NCBI RefSeq assembly: GCF_021648825.1
Contig: NZ_JAKJHS010000003.1
Location: 248,001 to 312,000, forward strand
Direction: 5' to 3'
DNA from: Rhizobium halophilum
GTDB taxonomy: Bacteria > Pseudomonadota > Alphaproteobacteria > Rhizobiales > Rhizobiaceae
Length of the DNA: 64,000 nt
Part shown: positions 45,803-48,324 of the stretch, piece after piece
Numbering within the stretch: position 1 is the first letter of the stretch
Layout of the letters: every line of letters starts with the position of its first letter
The notes under the pieces: model-generated
Seen by the model: the letters and a program-made list of their open reading frames with translations, nothing else
The model's database searches: none
What the model was told of the DNA's origin: nothing
Position numbers and translations under genes: made by a program

Positions 45803-46912
45803 ATGACCAAGTCTCTCTTCCTGCTTCCCGGCGACGGCATCGGCCCTGAGGCCATGGCTGAGGTTCGCAAGATCATCGCCCACATGAACAGCACGATGAA
45901 TGCCGGCTTCGAGACCGACGAAGGCCTAGTCGGCGGCTGCGCCTATGACGCGCATGGCCAAGCGATCTCGGAAGCCGACATGGCAAAGGCCACGGCGGCG
46001 GACGCCGTGTTGTTTGGTGCCGTCGGCGGGCCGAAGTGGGATGCCGTTCCTTATGAAGTACGTCCTGAAGCCGGCCTGCTGCGGCTGCGCAAGGACCTCG
46101 AGCTTTTTGCCAACCTGCGCCCAGCCATCTGCTACCCGGCACTCGCCAATGCCTCTTCTCTCAAGCCAGAGCTGGTAGAGGGCCTCGACATCCTTATCGT
46201 TCGCGAACTGACCGGCGGTGTCTATTTCGGCGAGCCGAAGGAGATCATCGACCTCGGCAACGGCCAGAAGCGGGGCATCGACACCCAGGTCTACGATACC
46301 TACGAGATCGAGCGGATCGCCAGCGTCGCCTTCGAGCTTGCGCGCACCCGCAAGAACCGCGTCTGCTCGATGGAAAAGCGCAACGTGATGAAGTCTGGGG
46401 TTCTCTGGAACCAAGTGGTGACGGAAACCCACAAGCGCTCCTTCTCCGACGTACAGCTCGAGCACATGCTGGCCGACGCCGGCGGCATGCAGCTTGTCCG
46501 CGCGCCGAAGCAGTTCGATGTCATCGTCACGGACAACCTGTTCGGGGATATGCTTTCCGACGTCGCAGCAATGTTGACCGGCTCGCTCGGAATGCTGCCG
46601 TCGGCCTCACTGGGGGCGCCGGACGGAAAAACCGGCAAGCGCAAGGCGCTCTACGAGCCCGTCCACGGCTCGGCACCGGACATTGCCGGCACCGGTGTTG
46701 CCAACCCGATCGCAATGATCGCCTCCTTCGCCATGTGCCTGCGCTATTCCTTCAACATGGTCGCGGAAGCCGATCGCTTGGAAAGGGCAATCGCCAATGT
46801 GCTCGATCAGGGCATTCGCACCGGCGACATCATGGCCGAAGGCTGCAGGCAGGTAGGAACCGCCGAAATGGGCGACGCCATCCTCAAGGAATTTGGCTCG
46901 CTTTCGGCTTGA
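45803..46912 (+). CDS. leuB: 3-isopropylmalate dehydrogenase LeuB
   Basis: A 369-residue NAD-dependent enzyme oxidising 3-isopropylmalate to 2-isopropyl-3-oxosuccinate, which decarboxylates to 2-oxoisocaproate, in leucine synthesis. It has [12 protein letters not shown] at the start, [11 protein letters not shown], the [12 protein letters not shown] substrate loop, and the metal-binding [16 protein letters not shown] with [14 protein letters not shown] for NAD. Length and residues are typical of an active enzyme. GAGAGGAA precedes the ATG. It is the last leucine gene here, and a strong GC-rich hairpin follows. Confidence 0.97.
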
Positions 46913-46921
46913 GCGATCTGA

Positions 46922-46951
46922 CTGCGGCGCCGAGGAAGAGCGGCGCCGCAG
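46922..46951 (+). terminator. Terminator hairpin after leuB
   Basis: CTGCGGCGCC (46922-46931) pairs perfectly with GGCGCCGCAG (46942-46951), and a further G-C closes the loop. It begins 10 bp after the leuB stop. It has no U-tract, as is common in GC-rich rhizobia. Confidence 0.7.
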
Positions 46952-47003
46952 GGCAAACCTTGGCAGATTCATCACCGTAAGTAGGTAGCGCAAAGCACCG
47001 GCC

Positions 47004-47030
47004 TTGACTCCAAATCAGAATCTTCTAAAC
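47004..47030 (+). promoter_or_regulatory. Candidate promoter of the asd leader transcript
   Basis: TTGACT at 47004-47009 is followed after 15 bases by CTAAAC (47025-47030), which partly matches the rhizobial TTGAC / CTATAT pattern. It would start an RNA about 20 nt before the leader ORF. The spacing is short, so this is tentative. Confidence 0.35.
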
Positions 47031-47056
47031 ACCACCGACGAACGGGAAAGCATCCT

Positions 47057-47176
47057 ATGAACCGCCGCGAGTTCAACATCGCTGCTGATTTCCAGCCGGC
47101 AGGTCTTGCCGGGCTGAGCCGGTGCTTTTCCGCCTCCAACAAAACCACGGCCAAAACGACGACGAAAACCGTCTGA
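47057..47176 (+). CDS. Putative Thr/Lys-rich leader peptide of asd (39 codons)
   Basis: A short ORF, ATG 47057 to TGA 47174-47176. The peptide starts MNRREFNIAADF and ends ASNKTTAKTTTKTV: six Thr and three Lys in the last 11 residues. It sits in the same direction as asd, 113 bp upstream, with GGGAAAG 7-9 nt before the ATG, and is too small to be picked up by most gene callers. A run of codons for the end products of the downstream pathway right before the stop is the hallmark of attenuator leader peptides. Asd supplies the Lys, Thr and Met branches. Function is inferred; I know of no described homologue. The alternative is a chance ORF. Confidence 0.6.
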   Translation: MNRREFNIAADFQPAGLAGLSRCFSASNKTTAKTTTKTV

Positions 47177-47191
47177 CGTCTCTGGCCCACC

Positions 47192-47269
47192 GCTCTCTCC
47201 CCGGTTAGGCCGGGGACAAGGAAAACTGCGGTTTGTCCGCGGGCTTCCCCCTCAACGATCGAGGAGAGA
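47192..47269 (+). promoter_or_regulatory. Candidate attenuator / anti-Shine-Dalgarno structures in the asd leader
   Basis: Just after the leader ORF three pairings compete. Hairpin A joins TCCCCGG (47198-47204) and CCGGGGA (47210-47216). Hairpin B joins GGACAA (47214-47219) and TTGTCC (47233-47238) and shares bases with A. TCTCTCC (47194-47200) can also pair with GGAGAGA (47263-47269) close to the asd start, masking the ribosome site. None has a U-tract. Which one responds to the leader ribosome is inference. Confidence 0.45.
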
Positions 47270-47289
47270 CAGAAAGAGAGCAAAAGATC

Positions 47290-48324
47290 ATGGGTTTCAA
47301 GATTGCAGTCGTCGGAGCAACCGGCAATGTCGGCAGGGAAATGCTGAACATTCTGGCCGAACGCGATTTCCCTGCCGAAGAAGTGGTCGCACTTGCCTCC
47401 GCCCGATCGCAGGGGACGGAAGTGTCCTACGGTGACAAAACCTTGAAGGTCTCCAACCTCGAGAACTACGACTTCTCCGACACAGATATCTGCTTAATGT
47501 CGGCCGGCGGCGAGACCTCGAAGAAGTGGTCGCCGAAGATCGGCGCCCAGGGCTGCGTCGTCATCGATAACTCTTCTGCATGGCGGTACGATCAAGAGGT
47601 TCCGCTCATAGTTCCGGAAGTGAACCCAGACGCGGTCGAAGGCTTCCGCAAGAAGAACATCATTGCCAATCCCAACTGCTCCACCGCGCAGCTGGTTGTG
47701 GCGCTGAAGCCGCTTCACGACTTTGCCAAGATCAAGCGCGTCGTCGTCTCGACCTACCAATCTGTATCTGGCGCCGGCAAGGAGGGCATGGACGAGCTCT
47801 TCACCCAGACCCGCGCCGTCTTCGTGGCCGATCCGGTAGAGTCGAAGAAGTTCACCAAGCGTATCGCCTTCAACGTGATCCCCCATATCGATAGCTTCAT
47901 GGAAGACGGCTACACGAAGGAAGAATGGAAGGTCTTGGCCGAAACGAAGAAGATGCTGGACCCGAAGATCCGTGTGACCTGCACCGCAGTCCGGGTCCCC
48001 GTATTTATCGGTCACTCAGAGTCGGTCAACATAGAGTTCGAGAATGAGATCACTGCCGATCAGGCGCGCGACATCTTGCGTGACGCGCCCGGCTGCCTCG
48101 TCATCGACAAACATGAGAACGGTGGTTACATCACGCCGATCGAATGCGCGGGTGAGGACGCGACCTACATCTCCCGCATCCGCGAAGATGCGACTGTCGA
48201 AAATGGCCTCAACTTGTGGGTCGTATCCGATAACCTACGCAAGGGAGCAGCCTTGAACGCGATCCAGATCGCCGAACTGCTGCTCAACCGCGGCCTCATC
48301 AAGCCGCGCAGACAGACAGCCTGA
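47290..48324 (+). CDS. asd: Aspartate-semialdehyde dehydrogenase Asd
   Basis: A 344-residue NADP-dependent enzyme reducing aspartyl phosphate to aspartate semialdehyde, the branch point to lysine/diaminopimelate, threonine and methionine. It has VVGATGNVGREML at the N-terminus, SAGGETSKKW, the catalytic Cys130 in IANPNCSTAQLV, and GHSESVNIEF with His242. ATG 47290 (MGFKIAVVGAT) is the family start; the frame extends upstream only by chance. A purine-rich GAGGAGAGACAGAAAGAG lies ahead. It is downstream of a Thr/Lys leader ORF, suggesting end-product control, and a hairpin follows the stop. Confidence 0.96.
   Translation: MGFKIAVVGATGNVGREMLNILAERDFPAEEVVALASARSQGTEVSYGDKTLKVSNLENYDFSDTDICLMSAGGETSKKWSPKIGAQGCVVIDNSSAWRYDQEVPLIVPEVNPDAVEGFRKKNIIANPNCSTAQLVVALKPLHDFAKIKRVVVSTYQSVSGAGKEGMDELFTQTRAVFVADPVESKKFTKRIAFNVIPHIDSFMEDGYTKEEWKVLAETKKMLDPKIRVTCTAVRVPVFIGHSESVNIEFENEITADQARDILRDAPGCLVIDKHENGGYITPIECAGEDATYISRIREDATVENGLNLWVVSDNLRKGAALNAIQIAELLLNRGLIKPRRQTA

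Follow-up and report, generated by a model that had tools for sequence, protein, structure and literature searches.

The locus analysed here lies in a 64,000-nt stretch of Rhizobium halophilum DNA (the window) and comprises leuB (45803–46912), a short ORF and asd (47290–48324, + strand), which encodes a 344-aa aspartate-semialdehyde dehydrogenase; the homologue in S. meliloti carries the same annotation. The pathways to Lys, Thr, Met, Ile and cell-wall diaminopimelate branch at Asd. The short ORF (47057–47176, + strand) starts with ATG and has 39 codons. Its product, MNRREFNIAADFQPAGLAGLSRCFSASNKTTAKTTTKTV, is, from sequence and comparison, a homologue of the S. meliloti asd leader and ends in KTTAKTTTKTV, that is, with six Thr and three Lys among the 11 C-terminal residues. 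The stop codon ends at 47176, leaving a gap of 113 nt before the asd ATG at 47290 on the same strand. An earlier note on this DNA had described this ORF, its length, its tail, its strand and its distance from asd, and each of these particulars was confirmed. The proposed sensor within it is the codon cluster AAA ACC ACG GCC AAA ACG ACG ACG AAA ACC (47141–47170, + strand). When an 18-base pattern of the cluster, which is a narrow one, was searched for in the whole genome, it matched this leader only, twice and in overlapping positions; the reversed control pattern gave one match per strand.

The leader ORF is preceded by a weak purine-type ribosome site, GGGAAAG (47044–47050, + strand), and by a candidate asd promoter (47004–47031, + strand) made up of TTGACT (47004–47009), a spacer of 16 nt and TAAACA (47026–47031). 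A strict sigma-70 scan returned no promoter match, and a genus alignment (n = 18) shows CTTGACT to be invariant and a ATCTTCTAA-type block to be largely kept. The asd leader RNA would start at about 47037–47040. The stretch that holds the leader's own ribosome site (47043–47052) is complementary to a central stretch of the leader ORF (47123–47132; inverted repeat I5), and the swap test described below gave this pairing weak support (8/3000, 75 sequences). Another inverted repeat, AAAGCACCGGC/GCCGGTGCTTT (46992–47002 and 47118–47128), was set aside because its first arm precedes the inferred RNA start and is not conserved in relatives. A perfect 11-bp GC-rich inverted repeat without a U run is located directly 3′ of leuB (46922–46951). 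No Rfam family matched the 64-kb window above its gathering score; the best sub-threshold match in 46900–47320 reached 19.6 bits versus 65.3 required.

Within the genus, DNA matching this region and running into asd was recovered from all 36 genomes searched, the window's own included, often only from the leader tail onward. For a wider comparison, 200 asd upstream loci were gathered (30 + 30 + 60 + 80 named), mostly from GTDB Rhizobiaceae, the named loci including one Roseibium and one MAG labelled Arenimonas; removal of 18 duplicates left 182 distinct regions. Loss of the tail in close relatives, which the earlier note had named beforehand as the outcome that would speak against its proposal, is not the case: an ORF with at least six Lys or Thr in its last 16 residues is present in 176 of the 182 regions, and in 153 the count is at least eight. 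These ORFs end 77–125 nt before asd. Among the six regions below the cut, five have short Thr/Lys/Ile tails and one (L085) lacks an ORF in the scanned stretch. A second ORF occurs in 52 of the 182 regions within the stretch scanned, its Lys/Thr count never exceeding four. In control stretches of 250 nt, taken on both strands from 80 of the loci, mostly coding and not matched in composition, a count of at least six was found in 3 of 1438 and a count of at least eight in none of 1438. A 3.7-Mb record named pSymB (CP090106.1; L359), which to judge from its size may be a chromosome or carry the wrong label, bears both asd and the leader; there, the leader shares sequence with the annotated frame of a hypothetical protein that begins at TTG. 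In six regions (L092, L099, L102, L106, L112 and L118) the leader is short and its ATG follows closely after a TTGAC-type box; such leaders may be read from leaderless transcripts.

Beyond the Rhizobiaceae, 120 regions were fetched, of which 111 remained after exclusion of nine without a located asd start. Thr/Lys-tail ORFs were found in 44 of them, 37 with at least eight Lys or Thr. They are concentrated in other families of the same order (40/71, the other 31 having no such ORF within 260 nt of asd), as compared with 4/40 in other orders. Throughout, the N-terminal part of the leader is variable and the tail recurs, with insertions in the tail consisting of whole codons. That the conserved Thr/Lys leader of asd is a real feature appears to us nearly certain. 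Since tail DNA is nearly invariant inside the genus, a conserved regulatory RNA containing the ORF by chance could by itself explain the conservation there. Across the order, however, the DNA differs and the Thr/Lys tail recurs; the whole-codon insertions and the rarity of such tails in the controls (3/1438) also stand against chance, as does the ribosome occupancy reported for the S. meliloti homologue, in another genome than the one studied here (PMC10117765). The probability left to a chance ORF is vanishingly small.

The S. meliloti asd leader ends RKTTAKTTTKTV and fits the description of SEP5, a comparison made with that description and not with the published SEP5 sequence. According to the accessible text of a 2023 report (Hadjeras et al., PMC10117765), the translation of SEP5 is documented by Ribo-seq and Western evidence; the report terms it 'possibly a leader peptide' of asd, 'conserved only in Sinorhizobium', and names the downstream gene aspartate dehydrogenase. 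As far as this text goes, the starting idea of an asd leader peptide is already in print for one species, S. meliloti (PMC10117765), and the statement in the earlier note that no example had been described for asd in rhizobia is not supported. The same text states that tagged SEP5 was detected in the soluble fraction (PMC10117765), as might be expected if the ORF encoded a small protein with an independent role. Little of the peptide is conserved, however, apart from its tail, and the RNA that follows the tail is conserved as well, which makes a protein function of this kind highly improbable.

The composition of the tail bears on what the leader may sense. Thr, Lys, Ile and Met, which are the amino acids made through Asd, together account for 86.7% of the 1770 residues at positions −11 to −2 of 177 leaders. 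In the 141 leaders that could be aligned gap-free, position −9 is occupied by Lys (65), Thr (54), Met (16) or another residue (6), the codon being AAG, ACG or ATG in 133 of them, and position −4 by Thr (126), Ile (13) or Val (2). Replacement of Thr by Ile is accordingly seen at −4 in 13 of the 141 leaders, and at −10 it is seen in 18. At −8 all 141 leaders have the Ala codon GCC, as the pairing of segment 1 (see below) would need. A role of the leader as a sensor of tRNA charging is, in our estimation, very probable. Given that the tail admits Ile and Met codons, the leader may even read the pool of all four Asd-dependent amino acids; the Ile/Met part of this proposal is suggestive only, because one base change suffices to turn a Thr codon into one for Ile, Met or Lys. 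Of the earlier proposal of an undescribed Thr/Lys leader sensing two end products, what holds is that asd is preceded by a conserved leader containing Thr and Lys codons; the word 'undescribed' does not hold.

Alternatively, translation of the leader might be a constitutive enhancer of asd or serve translational coupling only, in which case the Thr and Lys codons would not be sensors. The closeness of leader and asd would be compatible with this, and reinitiation at leader peptides is the topic of a paper (PMC4833913). Against it, the spacing of 77–125 nt is long for coupling, and the N-terminal part varies, the tail retaining Thr, Lys, Ile and Met; we regard this explanation as improbable. 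Returning to a leader that senses tRNA charging, no similar leader was found before hom, lysC or thrC in the 27 scannable of 36 loci, in which the highest Lys/Thr count was 5. No start was located in the other nine, among them lysC and thrC of the window's own genome; the scan used the most upstream start, so that a leader could hide inside an over-long reading frame. This result suggests that asd may integrate the demand for several end products.

The RNA between the codon cluster and asd can be divided into segments with competing complementarities, all on the + strand. Segment 1 (47149–47173, predicted) contains GGCCA (47149–47153), which can pair with UGGCC of segment 2, and encloses an inner hairpin (predicted) formed by GACG (47158–47161) and CGUC (47170–47173). 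Segment 2 (GUCUCUGGCC, 47178–47187, predicted) follows directly after the leader stop codon and can pair either with segment 1 or with segment 3 (GGCCGGGGAC, 47208–47217), the complementarity of segments 2 and 3 extending over 10 bp including G-U. The loop of the 2:3 helix holds segment A (GCUCUCUCC, 47192–47200), which is complementary to the purine tract of the asd ribosome site. The latter region (47263–47281) consists of GGAGAGA (47263–47269; hereafter P) and AGAGAGC (47275–47281), both complementary to A. Hairpin A:3 (47199–47215), in which CCCCGG (47199–47204) pairs with CCGGGG (47210–47215), competes with 2:3. A further hairpin, H2 (47220–47248; GGAA..CUGCGG/CCGCGG..UUCC), is followed by a pyrimidine tail without a U run. 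Of the pairings computed, 2:3 excludes 1:2, with which it shares segment 2, and A:3, with which it shares segment 3. As an alternative structure, A:P would sequester the asd ribosome site. The last paired base of P lies 14–21 nt before the ATG in 64 of 75 sequences, so that the A:P helix may abut the Shine-Dalgarno sequence without covering it.

These pairings were assessed by comparison. Alignment A1 comprises 75 sequences derived from the 177 leaders, ten with a spacer below 100 nt having been left out; for the swap tests and the masked folding described below, 13 of 14 short-spacer regions were added by hand, four of which have leaders that do not reach the cut of 5, to give 88 sequences. 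In the swap test, helix partners were exchanged between the 88 sequences and scored by single-helix stacking, a procedure adopted after a first version based on duplex energies had proved weak (p 0.02). The observed mean was reached by 0/5000 permutations for A:P, 0/3000 for 2:3, 0/3000 for the inner hairpin and 1/3000 for 1:2; with one sequence per helix type the values were 0/5000, 0/3000, 1/3000 and 4/3000, respectively. Composition accounts for part of the complementarity between A and P, since 11.7% of base-shuffled segment pairs reach the mean A:P energy. Of the 44 more distant leaders, seven (L238, L254, L251, L300, L333, L318 and L346) were left out, and the other 37, among which 35 belong to other families of the order, were put to the same test: A:P again gave 0/3000, and 2:3 was weaker (21/3000). 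Examples of co-varied pairs are CCCUCACC:GGUGAGGG in L084, CGCUUCCC:GGGAAGCG in L088, CGAUCUCUCC:GGAGAGAUCG in L091 and GCCUUCC:GGAAGGC in L092.

In A1, positions of 2:3 and A:P are paired in 90.4% of cells, as compared with 40.4–60.3% when the partner is slid, and the covariation score is 0.172 versus at most 0.125. Double changes affect eight pairs and 19 cells, which is above shuffled alignments but not above slid ones (up to 9 and 35, respectively), and relatedness inflates such counts. For segment 1, the inner hairpin and A:3 taken together, 92.4% of cells are paired versus at most 53.2% after sliding, and two of the 15 pairs show double changes, no more than the shuffled mean of 2.4. The inner hairpin has changed from G-C to C-G in 18 of 75 sequences through synonymous third positions of Thr codons, both the amino acid and the pair being kept, and these 18 changes may stem from few events. 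RNAalifold in its default setting predicted only A:3 from A1; with ribosum scoring and a slightly longer alignment it predicted 1:2, the inner hairpin, A:3, H2 and A:P together, a more complete version of the off state. The comparison shows that the predicted pairings after the leader, 2:3 and A:P, covary.

The following switch, inferred from the computed structures, could connect these pairings with the codon cluster. When Thr- and Lys-tRNA are charged, the ribosome would reach the stop codon and mask segment 2; hairpin A:3 would then form, A would still be able to pair with the purine tract of the asd ribosome site, and initiation would be hindered. If charged Thr- or Lys-tRNA were short, the ribosome would stall in the codon cluster and cover segment 1, leaving segment 2 free; 2:3 would be the first helix to form on the emerging RNA, with A held in its loop and the asd Shine-Dalgarno sequence open. 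On a ribosome-free leader 1:2 would form and asd would stay off.

The stand-alone energies are −20.9 kcal/mol for 2:3, −12.3 kcal/mol for A:3 and −13.6 kcal/mol for 1:2 with the inner hairpin. Nascent folding was modelled by cutting the RNA after segment 3 and applying ribosome masks to the 88 sequences. With a stalled ribosome, 2:3 was obtained in 81 of 88 sequences (codon −4) or 80 of 88 (codon −7), and pairs of the A:3 type were still expected in 55 and 37, respectively. With the ribosome at the stop codon, A:3 was obtained in 88/88, the value of zero for 2:3 being built in by the masking. Leaders free of ribosomes gave 1:2 in 66/88 and 2:3 in 22/88. For 47178–47300, the free fold, in which A is paired to the asd ribosome site, has −49.0 kcal/mol versus −46.4 kcal/mol with 2:3 enforced. 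Enforcing 2:3 would raise the unpaired fraction of the Shine-Dalgarno stretch (47274–47281) from 20% to 67%, lower that of P from 62% to 22% and change that of 47262–47289 overall from 63% to 58%. When enforced 2:3 was compared with the ribosome at the stop codon in 75 sequences, the ribosome region was opened in 57 and closed in four. It might be that A pairs with P while 2:3 stands, a pseudoknot that is beyond scoring by the folds used. The states told apart by nascent folding and by enforced 2:3 were not distinguished by equilibrium folding of whole leaders under the same kind of ribosome masks, in which A:P pairs were expected at a high level throughout; P and the Shine-Dalgarno sequence were more open upon stalling in 3 of 88 sequences and less open in 17 of 88. 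The model therefore needs the order of folding during transcription.

At which level asd would be controlled can be approached from the rarity of terminators. Should 'attenuator' in the earlier note mean a device for transcription termination, the layout of this region speaks more for asd being controlled at translation. No intrinsic terminator was found on the + strand of the window, the scan of the Rhizobiaceae set detected a terminator-like site in one region out of 177 (L114), and the longest T run does not exceed four in 170 of the 177. This rarity favours ribosome-mediated translational attenuation. It is conceivable that the leader instead sets termination before asd, through H2 or A:3, or through Rho acting on the C-rich RNA after the leader when asd is untranslated. 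The pyrimidine tract after H2 is in line with such a mechanism, and so are L114 and the terminator-like hairpins with U-rich tails seen in 3 of the 44 distant leaders (L238 and L254 from other orders, L323 from the same order). Termination would, however, not require A and the asd ribosome-site tract to covary, and it is poorly compatible with the 1/177 count and the short T runs; we consider it a serious though unlikely competitor. A ribosome-mediated attenuator acting mainly on asd translation is the reading that we regard as probable, and such a leader most likely permits Asd synthesis only when Thr or Lys runs short. On this reading, the Thr/Lys leader would be the component that is kept, its output in this order being translation in most cases. 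It is tempting to speculate, tentatively and with less than even confidence, that the leader is a widespread bistable translational attenuator gauging charged tRNA for Thr and Lys and, by codon replacement, for Ile and Met, and so for all four amino acids made through aspartate semialdehyde. Its output would have shifted, with the leader codons remaining constant, between control of translation, as in most of the sampled order, and transcription termination, as in L238 and L254 from other orders and perhaps in L323.

In the literature searched, which for the most part left subscription papers and supplements outside its scope, no other description of an asd leader was found, and term searches within PMC1273637, PMC4117421, PMC2965389 and PMC7298713 yielded no asd leader in the accessible text. 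The same literature contained nothing on how widely the leader is conserved, on an RNA switch, on the replacements by Ile or Met or on relatives with terminator-like hairpins. If true, the arrangement would be an unusual form of amino-acid attenuation that acts on translation, while relatives seem to use termination.

Among known systems, transcription attenuators of the thrL type combine a leader peptide rich in regulatory codons with competing pairings of the 1:2, 2:3 and 3:x kind. The asd leader resembles them in both respects and differs in having Lys besides Thr codons, in the gene, asd, and in lacking a U-tract terminator in the genus. In the ermC and cat leaders a stalled leader ribosome frees a sequestered downstream ribosome site, the signal being a drug; the release of the ribosome site proposed for asd would be alike, whereas its signal would be tRNA charging. 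The LEU element of actinobacterial leuA likewise places regulatory codons before a biosynthetic gene and involves pairing with the Shine-Dalgarno sequence; according to the accessible part of that study, its Shine-Dalgarno partner is the codon run, in contrast with the separate segment A of the asd leader, and mutations in the codons did not behave as in classical attenuation (PMC1262725). SEP5 is closest, sharing with the present leader its position in the asd 5′ UTR and, towards the 3′ end, a set of six Thr and three Lys codons (PMC10117765). The accessible text of that report describes it as restricted to Sinorhizobium and presents no RNA mechanism (PMC10117765), whereas the comparison made here points to a widely distributed tail followed by a covarying, putative switch.
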